Assembly: GCF_016429285.1 (NCBI RefSeq)
Contig: NZ_JAELUI010000021.1
Location: 1 to 50,949 of the forward strand
Origin: Ralstonia sp. ASV6
GTDB lineage: Bacteria > Pseudomonadota > Gammaproteobacteria > Burkholderiales > Burkholderiaceae
Reading direction: 5' to 3'
DNA length: 50,949 bases
The notes under the pieces were generated by a model. That model was not told the DNA's origin, ran no database searches, and worked only from the letters and a program-made list of their open reading frames with translations. Positions 7,246-39,408 of the stretch are shown here, piece by piece; position 1 is the stretch's first letter, and every line of letters starts with the position of its first letter. The translations under genes and the position numbers were made by a program.

Positions 7246-7309
7246 GCTTTGTATTTTCGGTGGTTTTTTTGCTGGTGGTCCATCCCTTGTTTCATCCCCT
7301 GCCGGGGCT

Positions 7310-7733
7310 GACTCACTTTCTTTGTCTTGCCAAAGAAAGTAAGCAAAGAAAGGCGCGCCCGATGCGGCGAAAGACTCCTTGAATTTATGTCGCAAGGAGG
7401 GAGCGGAGGCAAACTCGCTTCGCTCAAACAAGCCTCCCCTCGTTTTCCTCCTTGCAACAGAAATTCAAGGCGCCGCATAGGGCAGGAACGTCAAAAGACA
7501 AAAACCAAACCGTTGGTCCACTCGCGTTGCCGCTTGCAAACCAACGGTTTGGCCTTTCATGCCCTTGATGGTGCCTTGGATTTTTGTAAGCGGGCGGAAA
7601 AAAGAAGGGGGCCTGTTTGAGCGCAGCGAGTTTGCCCCCTTCTCCGCACGGTTACAAAAATCCAAGGGGAAGTCGCCATCTCGGGCGCGCCTTTCTTTGC
7701 TTACTTTCTTTGGCAAGACAAAGAAAGTGAGTC
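7310..7733. repeat. Composite inverted-repeat element between kdpC and kdpD
   Basis: Two 53-bp copies in perfect inverted orientation (7310-7362 and 7681-7733) enclose about 320 bp. Inside are three further palindromic modules: one bounded by CTTGAATTT/AAATTCAAG (about 7377-7471), a central CCAAACCGTTGG/CCAACGGTTTGG (about 7507-7554), and one bounded by CTTGGATTTTTGTAA and its complement (about 7576-7666). Imperfect symmetry extends outside the 53-bp copies. There is no transposase gene. The 53-bp sequence is of a type I associate with dispersed intergenic repeats in beta-proteobacteria. The rest of the 7246-7790 gap holds no gene. Confidence 0.85.
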
Positions 7734-7790
7734 GGGCCCGGCAGGGCACGAAATAGGGGACGTACCACCGGCGCCCGACTCAAAAAACGC

Positions 7791-15282: not shown

Positions 15283-15813
15283 TTACACGGTGATTCCTTG
15301 TGCTTTGCAGAGTTCCCGCAACATCTGCTCCTGTGTCAAACCCAAGCGAGAATCTCTTACCTGATGGTAGCGAGTGACGTTTTCTCCAAAGCGACCGCCC
15401 TGACTGTTCATGCTGGGCTCGACTGCGTGGATCAAGATTCCCTCGATATGATTTAGCACATCAGGAAGATTGGGGTGGAGAGCCGTAGTTCTGCTGGCAA
15501 GTTTCTGGTTCACTCCCGTGCCAACAACCCTCAGAAGACCAAACCAAGAAAACCGGTCCCACCTTCCAGCAAGATCATCTTTTCGGTGCTGCTTTAGTCG
15601 TGTGAACAAGGACTGTTTACCCACGCCAGCCTGCCCAACGTATACAACCTTGTAGTCGGCATACAAAACGTAGATGCCAATTTGCTCGCGGAAATCGACT
15701 GGTATAGAGGTTTTCCCATTTGGCGGAACACCGAGAAGGCGGCCGGCCTGATTACCCTTCCCCCAGAACACGTGATCTTCCCTCCAGAAGAATCCAACCG
15801 TCCGTACGAGCAT
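15283..15813 (-). CDS. GIY-YIG fold protein (putative nuclease)
   Basis: I choose the ATG at 15813 (MLVRTVGFFW), preceded by AGGGGG at 6 nt, over an upstream GTG at 15852; this gives 176 residues. The GIY-YIG core is in the middle: GIYVLYADYKVVYVGQAG, then LFTRLKQHRKDDL, a Glu in HIEGILIHAVEP and a following Asn (SMNSQGG). These correspond to the family's two Tyr motifs, the Arg helix and the metal-binding Glu. Expected activity is single-strand DNA cleavage, unproven here. The gene opens an AT-richer three-gene cassette. Confidence 0.85.
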   Translation of the reverse strand: MLVRTVGFFWREDHVFWGKGNQAGRLLGVPPNGKTSIPVDFREQIGIYVLYADYKVVYVGQAGVGKQSLFTRLKQHRKDDLAGRWDRFSWFGLLRVVGTGVNQKLASRTTALHPNLPDVLNHIEGILIHAVEPSMNSQGGRFGENVTRYHQVRDSRLGLTQEQMLRELCKAQGITV

Positions 15814-16034
15814 ATATAACCCCCTATATACGACACCATTTTTATCAAACACTTATGGCGAAGCCGATTTTCTTGCTCGCCACACTGGATACCCACTCCA
15901 CTCCAAATTTTCAACACCTGATACCCCACCCTCGTGTGGGTCGGACATGCCTGCAGGTATTCGGCACAGCTCGTCGCGCACCCTACCGAATATGGGAATG
16001 ATTCTTCTGGTAGAGGTATAGGGACGGAACGAGA

Positions 16035-16055
16035 AAAGCCGCCCAAGGCGGCTTT
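16035..16055. terminator. Bidirectional intrinsic terminator
   Basis: AAAGCCGCC pairs perfectly with GGCGGCTTT around a CAA loop. On the minus strand TTTTCTC follows, so it serves the gene ending at 16083. On the plus strand TTTAATTT follows. It marks the right border of the AT-richer cassette. Confidence 0.85.
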
Positions 16056-16082
16056 AATTTCAGACAACAGCTACCGGCTCAC

Positions 16083-16556
16083 TCACGCCGCAGCCAACTC
16101 GGCCTCCTTCTTCCTCGGCCCCTTGGCAAACCGCACCGACAACGCCTTCCGCGCCGTATCCAACCCTTCGCCCTGACCGGCAACCTTGAGGAAGGCGTAA
16201 CCCTCCAGCGCGGCGTTCATCACATCGCTGCCCAGCGCCAGTTGCGTGTCAGACATCCGCTCCTGCAACCGGTCCAGACGCACCAAACGGCTGCGCAGCA
16301 GATCGAACGCAGCCAGATCGCGACGCAATTCAGCGATGTTGAAGTTGCCGGGCAGCACGTTGGGGTTGTTGCCCAGCACCTCCACCGCCTTGCGGGCGAA
16401 TGCCTCGGATTTATCGCCCATCTTCGTCAGGAAGCGGCGCTGCTCGATGGTCAGGTCAATCAGGCCGGTGAGCCTGTCTTCCAGGGTCTTCAGTGCACCG
16501 TCAATAGCGGTCAGGTCGGTGGTGGTGAGCTGAAACGAAACCAAATTCTGTGACAT
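16083..16556 (-). CDS. Conserved hypothetical alpha-helical protein (157 aa)
   Basis: The start is MSQNLVSFQL with GAGG 7-8 nt upstream; an upstream in-frame ATG is less likely. The sequence is mainly helical with a Leu/Arg-rich middle (AELRRDLAAFDLLRSRLVRL) and a basic tail (KGPRKKEAELAA). It has no signal peptide or membrane helix. It resembles small cytosolic proteins common in Ralstonia and Burkholderia, but I cannot give a function. Upstream, 145-387 bp before the start, lies the GTTCNGAAC array, which could be its control region. An intrinsic terminator follows the stop. Confidence 0.75.
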   Translation of the reverse strand: MSQNLVSFQLTTTDLTAIDGALKTLEDRLTGLIDLTIEQRRFLTKMGDKSEAFARKAVEVLGNNPNVLPGNFNIAELRRDLAAFDLLRSRLVRLDRLQERMSDTQLALGSDVMNAALEGYAFLKVAGQGEGLDTARKALSVRFAKGPRKKEAELAAA

Positions 16557-16700
16557 TGCATTCCTCTTCTTGGGGTGGCTAAGTCGTGCTGGCGAGCACG
16601 AGCGCGGGAGATTGGCCACCGCAGCGCACCCGATCAATAGGAGACGGCCCCGTGATGGCCGTTTTGATCGCAAGTCGAGGCGGATTCCTATGCCGATGGC

Positions 16701-16943
16701 GTTCGGAACCCTGCGGATGCGGTTCGGAACGCCGGCATATGGCGTTCTGGACTGTCTGCGTGAGGTTCAGAACCCCACGGTTGGCGTTCTGGACTCTGCA
16801 TTTGGGGTTCAGAACTCGGGGGTGTGGCGTTCGGAACGCCACGCATGCGGTTCGTGAACACCGCGCTTGGAGTTCGGAACCTCAGGTGTCGGGTTCTGAA
16901 CGCCATGTGTGTTGTTCTGAACGCTGCGGCAGCTGTCCAGAAC
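16701..16943. repeat. Array of twelve GTTCNGAAC palindromes at 21-22 bp period
   Basis: Cores start at 16701, 16722, 16744, 16765, 16786, 16807, 16829, 16850, 16872, 16893, 16914 and 16935. Steps are 21 or 22 bp (mean about 21.3), i.e. two helical turns. Most cores are GTTC-N-GAAC; units 3 and 5 are GTTCTGGAC, unit 8 has a two-base centre (GTTCGTGAAC) and unit 12 is GTCCAGAAC. The 12-13 bp spacers differ. Units 3-4 and 5-6 repeat as a 42-bp pair. The irregular period breaks reading frames, so conservation is at the DNA or RNA level. The block occupies most of the 16557-16993 gap; no gene is seen there. Confidence 0.9.
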
Positions 16944-16993
16944 TGCTTCCGAGAATCGGCGTGCCAGGCCTGCACTACCGCAGCGCCCAACCA

Positions 16994-17671
16994 CTAAGGC
17001 TTGAACGTAAGAACAATCGTTCTGCTGCCAACCTGCCCAGGCTTCTCCAAGGGCAACGGAGACGAGCGCTCTATCGCCTTGAGCACCGCGTCATCGTAGG
17101 TCGTCACGCCGCTGGATTTTTGCAGCGTGGCGCGCAATACCGCGCCGTCTGGACCGAGCAACACCCTGACCACCGCGCTGATGTCACTTGGCAGGTTGCC
17201 ATCCGAGACCAAGAGGTTTGACCTCACCTTGGCACGCACCTTTTCAGCGTACGCAAGCGTTGCCGCTGACAAGTCCGGGGATAAGGCTGCCGTGCGAATG
17301 GTGGCGCCGTCCGTGCTGAAGACAAAGGGCTTTGAGAAGGAGACGCGCATCGCATGACCCGTTTCAGGGTCTTTGAACGGCGCACACCTGGTCGACTGAA
17401 CGGCATGCAGCGCGACCCCGTCAAGCAGGGCATTGCCGGAAGACTCGCTGACCTTCGCTTCCGAGACCGTCCCATCCGCCTCGATGACGGCAGAGACAAC
17501 GACCCGGCCTTCGGCCCGCGCTCGTCGAGCTTCAGCCGGATAGACCGGTGGAGGCTCGTTGCATCCGCTGGTAGGCGCCTTGACCTCCGCCAGCGGTAGC
17601 GGTGGTGTGGCGCATCCCGTCAGCAGTACAAACGGCACGATGCAAGCCAGTCGCTGCATGCGATACGACAT
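16994..17671 (-). CDS. Lipoprotein with two TonB/TolA C-terminal-like domains
   Basis: The 225-residue protein has a strong GGGGGG ribosome binding site. A lipoprotein signal ends at LLTGC (Cys near 19). A first TonB-C domain covers about 38-115 (PPVYPAEARRARAEGRVVVS, then IEADGTVSEAKVSESSG and LLDGVALHAVQS). A second, closer to TolA, covers about 145-225 (DGAVLRATLQKSSGVTTYDD, then AVLKAIERSSPLPLEKPG). TonB-C domains normally bind outer-membrane transporters, but this protein lacks the membrane anchor and Pro-rich spacer of true TonB. A periplasmic lipid-anchored role is likely. No ExbB/ExbD genes are near. Confidence 0.85.
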   Translation of the reverse strand: MSYRMQRLACIVPFVLLTGCATPPLPLAEVKAPTSGCNEPPPVYPAEARRARAEGRVVVSAVIEADGTVSEAKVSESSGNALLDGVALHAVQSTRCAPFKDPETGHAMRVSFSKPFVFSTDGATIRTAALSPDLSAATLAYAEKVRAKVRSNLLVSDGNLPSDISAVVRVLLGPDGAVLRATLQKSSGVTTYDDAVLKAIERSSPLPLEKPGQVGSRTIVLTFKP

Positions 17672-17950
17672 GAATCCCCCCAGTTCTTTGGCCCGGCATC
17701 TGTCTGATTGCTTTGCGCTGCGACTGGAATCCTAGCCGAAGCATGTGACAACGCCACTCAGGGGAGTCTTTGCCTATTCACAAGGCGCTGAGTTCGGTGT
17801 CTTCACTCGCTGCCGTATCAATCCCATCCGAAAACGTTGACGCCACCCATGCAGCAAAACCCCCACACCAACTTTTGATCGACTGTCCTCTGCGCGTGTA
17901 ACCATGGACAATCGCCTTCGAATCCCGCCCCGCGAACCTGCAGCTTAGGT

Positions 17951-20111: not shown

Positions 20112-20435
20112 TTACGCTTGCCACACCGCGTACCCTTCCTCGCGCAAACCGATCGCCAGCTCCACTTCCATCTCCCGCGCCGCTTCGTAAGGCATCGGGT
20201 TGAAGCACTCGTATAGCTCCGGCATCAGACGCAAGCCATACTCCCGCACAAACCGGTTCGCTTTCAGCCCTGCCTTGTGTTTGTCAAAGCGCACGTCCGG
20301 CGACTGTCCTGTCATGCCCACATAAACGCAAGGCTTGTCACCCAGGTAGTCGGGATTTGCTCTCATGAAGCGCGCTTCGGCCAGCACTTGCCGCGAGAGT
20401 TCGACAACGTAGACGTGGTGGTGATGACGAGGCAT
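20112..20435 (-). CDS. Small GIY-YIG family protein (107 aa)
   Basis: I choose the start MPRHHHHVYVVEL because the GIY-YIG core begins directly after it; no clear ribosome binding site is seen. The core has HVYVVEL, then KPCVYVGMTGQSPDVRFDKH and a Glu in REMEVELAIGLREEGYAV. Length is typical of short stand-alone GIY-YIG proteins of Burkholderiales. These are predicted endonucleases of unknown role. It differs strongly from the GIY-YIG protein of the cassette at 15.3-15.8 kb, so the two are not recent copies. Confidence 0.75.
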   Translation of the reverse strand: MPRHHHHVYVVELSRQVLAEARFMRANPDYLGDKPCVYVGMTGQSPDVRFDKHKAGLKANRFVREYGLRLMPELYECFNPMPYEAAREMEVELAIGLREEGYAVWQA

Positions 20436-20683
20436 TGAAGAAGTCTTCAACAGCGAAGCAGCGGACGGTGAGCATAGATCGTAGCGCTCGGGCATTTCTT
20501 CGGCCACTGCGAGCTGAGCGTCGGGGCCCGGAATGCCCTTAGTGCACCGTTTCCCAACAGCGGAAGCAGGATGATGAGTGGCCGAATTTGGCCGATAGAG
20601 AACGCTCAGCCCCAGGGGCCAAACGGAGGACTTGATACGAGCCTTGGACCTCCTGTCCTTCGGCATTGAGTTGTCTACAGTTC

Positions 20684-21247
20684 TCAGTGGATGTTGCGGA
20701 TAACAAGGAAGAGCAAGCCGGCAACGGCCAGTCCTGCTGCGAATCCCGCAAACACTGCTCGGCTGCGAAGCCACGTCGGGCCAAGGGCCAACGGCGAAAG
20801 GTGGGCAACTATCTGACTGCGTCCGTTGCCGATGTCGCCAATGTGTTTTGCAACGGTCTCAAGGGTGGACAAGAATCGTTCGCCGCCAGTCGAGTCACCA
20901 TCAATCGTTGCTTTCCAGAGATTCACGCGGGCGTGGAGGAGCCCATCACTCCATTCGATAGCCCACGCATAGTTCTTGAGCAGCGTATCCAGAGCACTGC
21001 ACAGTTCGCTGTCTGCGGCGATGGCTTGAACAAGGCTGGGCGCTTGTTTTCCGTACGCAAAAAGCCCAGGGCGGATTTCTACTTTCGTCAGATAGGACAG
21101 CGGATTGACCAGTCGCGCTTTCTCTTTTGCATAGAACCCCACGTCAACGTGTTTGGTGCATGCGACCGGGATAGTCGCGACCTCAAGTGCTCGCGAACGA
21201 AATATAGAAACGTTGCGTTGCCGAGCCATTTCGTCGAGTGAAAGCAT
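20684..21247 (-). CDS. Hypothetical protein with C-terminal membrane anchor
   Basis: The 187-residue protein has no recognisable domain. Its only clear feature is a C-terminal hydrophobic helix (about 163-184, AVFAGFAAGLAVAGLLFLVI) followed by RNIH, typical of a tail-anchored protein whose soluble part faces the cytoplasm. Codon use looks normal for the region. The 248-bp gap between it and the small GIY-YIG gene (20436-20683) shows nothing recognisable. Function unknown. Confidence 0.6.
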   Translation of the reverse strand: MLSLDEMARQRNVSIFRSRALEVATIPVACTKHVDVGFYAKEKARLVNPLSYLTKVEIRPGLFAYGKQAPSLVQAIAADSELCSALDTLLKNYAWAIEWSDGLLHARVNLWKATIDGDSTGGERFLSTLETVAKHIGDIGNGRSQIVAHLSPLALGPTWLRSRAVFAGFAAGLAVAGLLFLVIRNIH

Positions 21248-26927: not shown

Positions 26928-26975
26928 TTATCCCCAGAAGTTGTCCACACCCGTTATCCACAACGGTTGTCCACA
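26928..26975 (+). other. Four DnaA boxes at exact 13-bp spacing
   Basis: TTATCCCCA (26928), TTGTCCACA (26941), TTATCCACA (26954) and TTGTCCACA (26967) are direct repeats of 9 bp separated by 4 bp. One is a perfect consensus box and three deviate at one position. The same 13-bp step links the two boxes at 24979 and 24992. The rest of the 26887-27265 gap shows no gene. Confidence 0.75.
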
Positions 26976-27265
26976 CGGGTGTTTCAGATCTGCAAAGGTT
27001 TTGGTTCGAAACACGCGCCCCTAGCCGGCACGCCGGTCGCAAGACTTGGCGGCACAACCTGTGGCGCGACTTTTGCATTGCGCACGGCGGCTTGCCAATT
27101 CCGGTTTTGAATATGCGACACCAATACCGGGCTCACCCATTTGGGGTGGCACCCGCTTGCTGCGTTGCCAGCGCAACGGCATCAATCATCGGGAGCGGGC
27201 GGCGGGCAGTTCGGGTCTGCGCGCGGAGCCACGGGATCGGCACAAGCCCAACGAGGAGTGAAGCC

Positions 27266-37821: not shown

Positions 37822-39408
37822 ATGTCGCATCCCCTTTCCGTGCAACTCGGCGCTGTGCCCGCGCGCTTTCGCAATGCCGGCATTGCGCTGTTTCTGCTGA
37901 TCCTGGCGGCCGCTGCCGCCTACGTGATCAGCCACCTGGTGTCCGACCTGGAAAGCGTGGCTTCCAGTTCGGCGTTTCCGTTTGTCCTGCTTGGCATTGC
38001 ACTGGTCATCGCGCTGGGCTTTGAGTTCGTCAACGGTTTCCACGACACGGCCAATGCAGTGGCCACGGTCATCTACACGCATTCGCTGTCGCCGCATCTG
38101 GCGGTGGTGTGGTCGGGCCTGTGGAATTTTGCGGGGGTGCTGACCTCCAGTGGCGCAGTCGCCTTCGGCATCCTGCAACTGCTGCCGGTGGAGCTGATCC
38201 TGCAGGTGGGCAGCCACTCGGGCTTTGCGATGGTGTTTGCGCTGCTGATCGCGGCCATCATCTGGAACCTGGCGACGTGGTACCTGGGGCTGCCGTCGTC
38301 CAGTTCGCATACGCTCATCGGCTCGATCATCGGCGTGGGGCTGATGAACCAGCTCCTGCGCGGCGCCAACGGCACCAGCGGGGTGGATTGGAGCCAGGCG
38401 CTGGGGGTGGGCAAATCGCTGCTGTTCTCGCCCATCATCGGCTTTCTGCTGGCGGCGCTGCTTCTGCTGGTGCTCAAGGCATTGGTGCGTGTGCCGGCGC
38501 TCTATGCCGAACCCGAGGGCAACCAGCCCCCGCCGTTCTGGATTCGCGCGCTGCTCATCCTCACCTGCACGGGCGTGTCGTTCGCGCACGGCTCCAACGA
38601 CGGGCAGAAAGGCATGGGCCTGATCATGCTGATCCTGATCGGCACGGTGCCCACCGTCTACGCGCTCAACCGCGCCGTCACGCCCGCCGAGACGCAAACC
38701 TTCCTGGCGGTATCGCACCAGGCGTCGGCCGCCTTCGGCAGGTACGCCAACGGAGTGGCGCCTTCGGCCAACCCGCGTGCGGATGTGCAGACCTACGTGC
38801 AGTCGCGCACGCTCACGCCGGCCACGCTGCCCGCCGTGCAGGCACTGACGGACACCATTGCCGTACAGGTCGGCCAGACGGGCTCGATGGCCACCGTGCC
38901 GCAAAACGAGGTGGATAACGTGCGCAACAACATGTACTTGGTCTCCGAGACCATCCGCCTGCTCAAGAAGAACGGCCAACCCGCCATCAGCAAGGATGAT
39001 CAGGCCATCATCGACAACTACAAGCAGCAGCTCGACCACGCCACCAAGTTCATCCCCACGTGGGTGAAGGTGGCGGTGGCGATTGCGCTGGGCCTGGGCA
39101 CGATGGTGGGCTGGAAGCGCATCGTGGTGACGGTGGGCGAGAAGATCGGCAAGCAGCACCTGACGTACGGGCAGGGCGCCTCGGCCGAGTTGGTGGCGAT
39201 GGCCACGATTGGCGCGGCCGATGCGTATGGCCTGCCGGTGTCGACCACGCATGTGCTGTCGTCGGGCGTGGCGGGCACCATGGCTGCCAACGGATCGGGG
39301 CTGCAGTGGAATACGGTGCGCAGCCTGCTGCTGGCATGGGTGCTGACGCTGCCAGCGTCGATCGTGCTGGCCGGCGCGCTGTACTGGGTGTTCAAGGCGG
39401 TGTTCTGA
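37822..39408 (+). CDS. pitA: Inorganic phosphate transporter, Pit family
   Basis: The 528-residue membrane protein has the two Pit signatures GFHDTANAVAT (about 74) and SFAHGSNDGQKGMG (about 253-266), about ten membrane helices and a long soluble loop (about 285-410) between the halves. The C-terminal STTHVLSSGVAGTM repeats the PSSSSHTLIGSIIG motif of the first half, showing the family's internal duplication. Family knowledge: low-affinity proton-coupled uptake of metal-phosphate. A PPK2 kinase gene converges on it, linking phosphate entry and polyphosphate use by position. Confidence 0.95.
   Translation: MSHPLSVQLGAVPARFRNAGIALFLLILAAAAAYVISHLVSDLESVASSSAFPFVLLGIALVIALGFEFVNGFHDTANAVATVIYTHSLSPHLAVVWSGLWNFAGVLTSSGAVAFGILQLLPVELILQVGSHSGFAMVFALLIAAIIWNLATWYLGLPSSSSHTLIGSIIGVGLMNQLLRGANGTSGVDWSQALGVGKSLLFSPIIGFLLAALLLLVLKALVRVPALYAEPEGNQPPPFWIRALLILTCTGVSFAHGSNDGQKGMGLIMLILIGTVPTVYALNRAVTPAETQTFLAVSHQASAAFGRYANGVAPSANPRADVQTYVQSRTLTPATLPAVQALTDTIAVQVGQTGSMATVPQNEVDNVRNNMYLVSETIRLLKKNGQPAISKDDQAIIDNYKQQLDHATKFIPTWVKVAVAIALGLGTMVGWKRIVVTVGEKIGKQHLTYGQGASAELVAMATIGAADAYGLPVSTTHVLSSGVAGTMAANGSGLQWNTVRSLLLAWVLTLPASIVLAGALYWVFKAVF

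Follow-up and report, generated by a model that had tools for sequence, protein, structure and literature searches.

Phased dyad arrays and a neighbouring gene for a small helical protein in Ralstonia and other bacteria

Between two genes of Ralstonia sp. ASV6 lies a row of twelve short palindromes, spaced at about two turns of the DNA helix, and the question raised by this locus is what such a row is for and which protein it belongs to. The window analysed here is a stretch of 50,949 nucleotides (NZ_JAELUI010000021.1, positions 1 to 50,949), which corresponds to contig C171 in a genome of 5.9 Mb. The original prediction, made from the sequence alone, had singled out the palindromes. Judging from the sequences compared here, the key point that it overlooked is the neighbouring gene, whose family often carries arrays across phyla, and the window array is very probably one example among many of a partnership between gene and array. 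The features concerned are the following:

16701..16943, no strand: dyad array of GTTCNGAAC, 12 units with a period of 21-22 bp
16557..16700, no strand: gap between gene start and array, in a 400-bp flank that is identical to the orthologous locus of genome G004 at 355 of 400 positions
16083..16556, minus strand: partner gene, encoding a protein of 157 aa with an all-helical model

Layout of the array and constraint on its cores

The array comprises 12 dyads: eight are exact copies of GTTCNGAAC, three (at 16744, 16786 and 16935) carry one mismatch, and one, GTTCGTGAAC at 16850, is one base longer than the core. The units start at 16701, 16722, 16744, 16765, 16786, 16807, 16829, 16850, 16872, 16893, 16914 and 16935, with steps of 21, 22, 21, 21, 21, 22, 21, 22, 21, 21 and 21 bp. 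The mean step is 21.27 bp, which confirms the twelve copies at 21-22 bp originally described. A coding repeat was rejected, as it had been before, because the 22-bp steps and the extra base at 16850 shift the reading frame. Nine exact cores were found in the window, eight of them in the array and the ninth at 39402, where 0.71 were expected (the mean of whole-window shuffles). If one mismatch is allowed, the array has 11 cores and its shuffled versions have 0.07. A 42-bp higher-order repeat that had also been proposed proved weak: units 3-4 and 5-6 are identical at 28 of 42 positions, largely owing to the two cores, and the self-identity of the array at lag 42 (0.44) is below that at lag 21 (0.50). 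When 194 Ralstonia units from 15 loci were aligned, both strands counted, the consensus dyad grew to YTGRGGTTCNGAACYCCAR.

Comparison of the window array with its orthologue in G004 (L143) revealed identity at 93 of 96 core bases, 5 of 11 centre bases and 92 of 133 spacer bases (Fisher p 2e-8). Cores are thus more conserved than spacers, as had been anticipated, and the two have not decayed equally at this locus, so that the outcome named as refuting the original prediction did not occur. Four comparisons between genomes with a gene of the GTTC clade (see below), which have arrays in common and are hence non-independent, gave 391 of 408 identical positions for cores and 448 of 571 for spacers. 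Cores of the window type are under purifying selection.

The distribution of the 22-bp steps was analysed in 13 Ralstonia array patterns that contain them. Successive 22-bp steps are separated by 3 to 8 units, most gaps (11 of 13) measuring 4 or 5 units, and none of 5000 shuffles fits 21.2 bp as well (p 0.0002). The patterns come from 41 catalogue rows, with L144 standing in for the window locus and with duplicates, L162 (20- and 23-bp steps) and rows with 21-bp steps only excluded; because L008 and L077 represent one ure locus from two species, and further patterns are perhaps related, this p value is somewhat too good. Where 22-bp steps are present, they fall at about every fifth unit, the spacing required by 10.6 bp per turn. 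The predicted period near 21 bp in phase with the helix therefore stood, at 21.2 bp, for Ralstonia arrays with 22-bp steps. A universal 21.2-bp period was rejected: rows from outside Ralstonia are mostly exactly 21 bp, and the rule that holds widely is two helical turns, not 21.2 bp.

Arrays are present on at least 8 contigs of the host genome (C5, C8, C65, C67, C171, C237, C282 and C533), with 0 for the reversed-pattern control. Of 16 Ralstonia genomes, 15 (all but G005) contain the exact two-unit pattern, and none of 45 further genomes from the family and order does. Arrays also recur at fixed loci, as had been suggested for relatives, and many keep the same place in several Ralstonia species. 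In G008 and G011, assembled in three contigs each, a looser pattern allowing three mismatches located about seven places per genome on the two largest contigs, several of them common to both genomes; its reversed control gave 8 matches vs 21 real ones in G011 and 0 in G008. Arrays of 12 or 13 units account for 23 of the 41 catalogue rows (duplicates counted). The gap between ureE and ureC, compared in 13 genomes (all but G004, G008 and G012), holds GTTC units in six (G000, G001, G002, G003, G010 and G014), a short remnant in G009 and, as judged by eye, mainly GCTC-like units in G005 and G015 and an unclassified repeat in G013. GTTC cores were not found in this gap in G006, G007, where the anchor is poor, or G011.

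Pairing of arrays with one gene family

The start codon of the partner gene, correctly placed at 16556 by the original prediction, lies 144 bp from the array. The gene is under purifying selection, with ratios of nonsynonymous to synonymous substitution of 0.06-0.13 (15 pairs among six Ralstonia orthologues). Searches of Pfam, PHROGs and PADLOC gave no match to its protein, and NCBIfam gave a single row (E 0.011), far short of the cut-off. Eleven family members were compared with Pfam, and none has a match at E 0.01. A second copy in the host genome, on contig C381, has another array with a period near 21 bp.

We scanned open reading frames (ORFs) around foreign arrays and found look-alike proteins beside those of Flavobacterium (L119), Kaistella (L108) and Chitinophagales (L080). 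A family profile, built by iteration from three seeds (the proteins of the window, L119 and L108), placed a member within 11 of 110 non-Ralstonia stretches (at most 8 kb each and chosen by DNA pattern alone; among the matches listed). The 110 stretches are the 118 listed minus eight from Ralstonia, and the 11 include L108 and L119, which were profile seeds. The 11 are distributed as follows:

Nostocales: L033, L044, L092 and L129
Bacteroidota: L080, L093, L108, L119 and L121
Treponema: L053
Thiosymbion: L087

Whole genomes or records were searched for the gene behind 22 of 121 listed stretches. It was present in 13 of 19 array-bearing cellular genomes, six of which were known beforehand; the unbiased count from array to gene is 7 of 13 genomes. 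The background frequency of the gene is 3 in 368 other Gammaproteobacteria and 25 in 295 Bacteroidota besides the centre genome.

In the opposite direction, an even draw of Bacteroidota gene copies, found by protein and analysed with one fixed script, yielded 28 new loci of 45 matches listed. A 20-22 bp array lies within 700 bp of 16 of these 28 copies, on the 3' side in 15; in the far flanks of the same loci an array occurred in 1 of 54. Arrays were also near 37 of 43 other non-Ralstonia copies (13 from three Gammaproteobacteria genomes and 30 from genomes picked for arrays) and near 29 of 39 Ralstonia copies, vs 9 of 92 control chunks. Most of the arrays outside Ralstonia lie on the 3' side of the gene, at a distance of some 60-430 bp. 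Gene and array occur jointly in at least five phyla, above control rates. The link between them is strong, not universal, and the pairing is very probably a real system. That the arrays are neutral tandem repeats made by slippage, with no function, could be argued from the exact 21- or 42-bp units by which some are amplified (for example, L171 and L176). The constraint on the cores, the regular phase and the pairing with one gene family across phyla make this scarcely credible.

The arrays share their dyad symmetry and near-two-turn period, not one sequence. Their best-fitting palindromes include GTTC-N-GAAC, TTGC-N2-GCAA, CTCT-N-AGAG, TCTC-N-GAGA, CTCC-N2-GGAG, GGTT-N3-AACC, CAAA-TTTG and others. 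Paralogues within one genome differ in array core; those of one Acidobacteriota genome have GTTC-N-GAAC, CTCC-N2-GGAG and TCTC-N-GAGA. In a tree of the Ralstonia proteins, the seven full-length GTTC-array genes split from five GCTC-type genes with branch support 99/98, and the GTTC rows split from all 26 other Ralstonia rows with support 92/95. In Ralstonia, the type of core goes with the clade of the protein. The core labels were set by us from the best-fitting palindromes, leaving 22 rows unlabelled, and some GCTC-type rows fit other registers (CGAG-CTCG, AGCT-N3-AGCT). The tree omits L159, whose sequence is that of L153, and copies of less than 140 aa, including L149 (GCTC-like) and L245 (GTTC); its outgroup row, OUT_L033, is the L092 protein. 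GTTC units adjoin amplified GCTC units in L171 (G011:C1:1646243-1646545) and at G001:C196:18279-18497, and these mixed arrays look as if one core type were replacing another.

On the other side of the window array lies a further gene:

16994..17671, minus strand: TonB-type gene with two TonB C-terminal domains, its stop codon 50 bp from the array

Among the 16 genomes, a single alignment spanning the partner gene, the array and the TonB-type gene was obtained for G004 only. No promoter and no terminator were predicted in a scan of 16000-17800. Elsewhere in the window, the ORF at 15283-15852 has a weak GIY-YIG match below cut-off, the ORF at 20112-20774 has no Pfam match and resembles the former by eye, and a short tandem repeat of period 13, GTTGTCCACACCC, occupies 26940-26976. 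A dispersed repeat of about 250 bp is present as two neighbouring pieces in the window (7272-7486 and 7545-7767) and in L008 (8130-8740). It gave 44 to 62 matches per Ralstonia genome with the query from the ure locus, and several of its copies are only a few hundred bp away from a GTTC array, as at C282:11043 by the array C282:10802-10937.

Proposed occupancy of the dyads

Which molecule might occupy the dyads? The GTTC arrays of Ralstonia have the constrained cores, free centre and helical spacing expected of a cooperative dimer operator. Because dyad symmetry and the two-turn period are constant and the sequence is variable, dimers on one face fit better than RNA pairing. The best reading is still that of protein dimers lined up on a single DNA face, and the earlier interpretation as an array of nucleoprotein sites is plausible. 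The array may be the cognate DNA site cluster of the neighbouring small helical protein, a proposal for which we see an even balance. That the family protein directly binds and coats the array is put forward more tentatively; coating would probably be by this protein itself or by a complex containing it. The 12 residues after the last phenylalanine are net-positive in all 11 members compared (+1 to +4), and since this short stretch is the only basic feature that they share, there is room for binding through a partner.

In the proposed mechanism, a dimer of the family protein, or of a complex including it, would sit on each dyad, and neighbouring dimers would touch along one face of the DNA. 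The array would so be coated as a short filament, often of 12-13 units (about 243-263 bp in Ralstonia). The same protein would also have sites in the other arrays of its core type elsewhere in the genome, so that the filaments could link or label positions on the chromosome. Paralogues would be kept from cross-binding by their different cores. An odd period of 21 would place a second dyad 10.5 bp, or one turn, from the first, which is perhaps why odd and even cores both occur.

Alternatively, the array might act as RNA, its self-complementary units pairing into a long hairpin or a sticky RNA to which the protein binds. The plus strand folds with -146 kcal/mol (z -9.6 vs shuffles; z -8.6 for the minus strand), and arrays outside Ralstonia, being mostly 3' of the gene, could share its transcript. 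However, when the spacers were permuted and the cores kept, the energy was about the same (z -2.2 to +1.9 over the two strands of 18 Ralstonia arrays, with 40 permutations apiece). With the shuffle signal gone, an RNA with a specific fold was rejected, and the alternating hairpins of the original prediction lost their support. Moreover, orthologous arrays fold differently, no Rfam covariance model matched in 15800-17800 at E up to 1, and RNA pairing needs no fixed two-turn period. We regard an RNA function as improbable.

Several observations weigh against the arrays being cognate sites of the family protein. The gene was missing from 6 of the 19 array genomes searched, namely those of Saccharothrix, Actinokineospora and Thiohalocapsa together with Bacteroidaceae, Planctomycetaceae and Nocardia cases. 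Conversely, the array test found none at 12 of the 28 Bacteroidota copies, and 10 of 39 Ralstonia copies and the copy on a Thiodictyon plasmid are without an array; the array also lies 5' of the gene in Ralstonia and mostly 3' elsewhere. The net charge of 11 family members ranges from -6 to +2, and the partner protein has no recognised DNA-binding domain and no fold match in the PDB at E<=0.001. As to phase, 11 of 41 Ralstonia catalogue rows have 21-bp steps only. Identity at lag 63 exceeds that at lag 64 in 17 of 24 Ralstonia rows and in 38 of 44 usable rows from outside the genus (38 of 46 before removal of L048, a masked-base artefact, and L186, a Ralstonia copy). Two comparisons in a genome pair without a GTTC-clade gene gave 198 of 200 identical core and 270 of 280 identical spacer positions (p 0.08), this pair being too closely related to separate core from spacer decay. 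Exact GCTC arrays track the GCTC-clade gene weakly (p 0.06), in a search whose reversed control also matched five times in G011 and three times in G015. The strongest result against the simple reading is that seven Ralstonia genomes (G001, G002, G007, G008, G011, G012 and G013) have GTTC arrays and no GTTC-clade gene among the copies found, in a search that scored 22 candidates per genome and may have missed copies. These seven genomes led to rejection of the idea that GTTC arrays depend on the GTTC-clade gene alone; their arrays either persist without a matching gene or use another paralogue.

Such arrays without a matching gene would be accounted for if a different, unlinked protein bound the DNA and the small helical protein were an accessory that bridges or regulates the binder. 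The family, neutral to acidic with its short basic stretch only and with no known DNA-binding fold matched at E<=0.001, would suit an accessory role. A single binder, however, would not explain why the core tracks the protein clade in Ralstonia and differs between paralogues, and we consider an unlinked binder unlikely.

The arrays of Saccharothrix, Actinokineospora and Thiohalocapsa are partly of other spacing and may be something else. In Thiohalocapsa (L109, 411-782), whose genome lacks the partner protein, GTTCGGAAC cores follow each other at 10, 11, 12, 21, 22 and 24 bp, possibly as a different phased system. Saccharothrix loci (L021, L022, L051, L063, L082 and others) carry GTTCNGAAC at mostly 22-bp steps, and the partner protein was not found in the one Saccharothrix genome searched.

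Relation to known systems

REP and REPIN palindromes are dispersed, extragenic and of several types, one type being tied to one gene for a RAYT, a Y1 transposase. The arrays described here resemble them in dispersal, in extragenic position, in having several sequence types and in the link between type and gene. In contrast, they often comprise 12-13 dyads in two-turn phase, and their partner is a small helical protein without a Y1 domain. This likeness invites the suggestion that the gene disperses selfishly together with its array, single arrays being relics of past spread. Same-core arrays are indeed scattered over contigs and over both large replicons, and the ureE-ureC gap holds a GTTC array, units of another type or none, depending on the Ralstonia genome. 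Yet the partner protein matches no transposase or nuclease, and the Y1 domain (PF01797), present in 27 of 32 partner-gene genomes and then away from the partner gene, has no match in the other five. Y1-transposase loci of the gene-bearing genomes carry a 20-22 bp array in 1 of 30 cases, the other 29 being without. Many arrays at the same place in several species further imply that any spread is old or rare, and a selfish pair seems quite improbable. Y1 (IS200-like) transposase genes do adjoin arrays in Flavobacterium (L119, 2782-3585) and Treponema (L027, 3151-3480).

Plasmid iterons, ParB-parS and ParR-parC likewise combine phased repeats with an adjoining cognate gene and use sequence types that keep systems apart, features shared by the arrays. 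The arrays differ in having symmetric units, in occurring several times per genome on both large replicons (G008 and G011), and in that their protein has no Pfam match at all. The partition or iteron site of one replicon that had been considered is therefore not favoured, nor does the window protein match any of 72,556 plasmids or 50,697 phages. A Nostoc family member matches one plasmid. Two single-protein scans of virus collections gave no relative of the partner protein, which has no match to viral structure models at E<=0.001 either; the array pattern is present in three viral stretches, and the gene was not found in the two whole virus records searched.

Lrp- and MetJ-type proteins coat DNA cooperatively, binding as dimers to palindromic sites at helical spacing. 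The arrays share such sites, whereas the protein matches neither family, and a position 5' of the gene in Ralstonia and mostly 3' elsewhere is not operator-like. CRISPR arrays differ in that the cores here are of 9 bp and the 12-13 bp spacers are common to orthologous arrays; no cas family above cut-off was detected among eight neighbours of the window array.

Heptamer tandem repeats are reported to be abundant among prokaryotes and to lack an explanation (PMC6344855). They resemble the arrays in being intergenic and widespread, 21 being a multiple of 7, and differ in that the arrays have no general 7-bp sub-period. A heptamer repeat was rejected on a mean identity of 0.31 at lag 7 vs 0.57 at lag 21 (70 rows); in single arrays, L148 among them, the value at lag 7 rises to 0.48. 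No account of these arrays or of this protein family was recognised among the matches listed for the literature searched, which lay mostly outside subscription journals.

We lean towards regarding the pairs as an unnamed class, in which a small all-helical protein is accompanied by its own two-turn dyad array, with several types per genome, in at least five phyla, and with extra arrays as addressable chromosomal sites. Such a class would be another protein-repeat partnership beside CRISPR-Cas, REP-RAYT and ParB-parS, in which specificity has been re-written many times with period and symmetry fixed. Should the pairs prove to be a binding system, a conserved family absent from the four libraries searched (Pfam, NCBIfam, PHROGs and PADLOC) would gain a role. 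Tandem repeats of 21 bp are common in bacterial genomes, and part of them could then be explained in this way. Such a system would also supply natural protein-DNA array codes, all belonging to one compact family, and the recognition code could be derived from the paired sequences alone.
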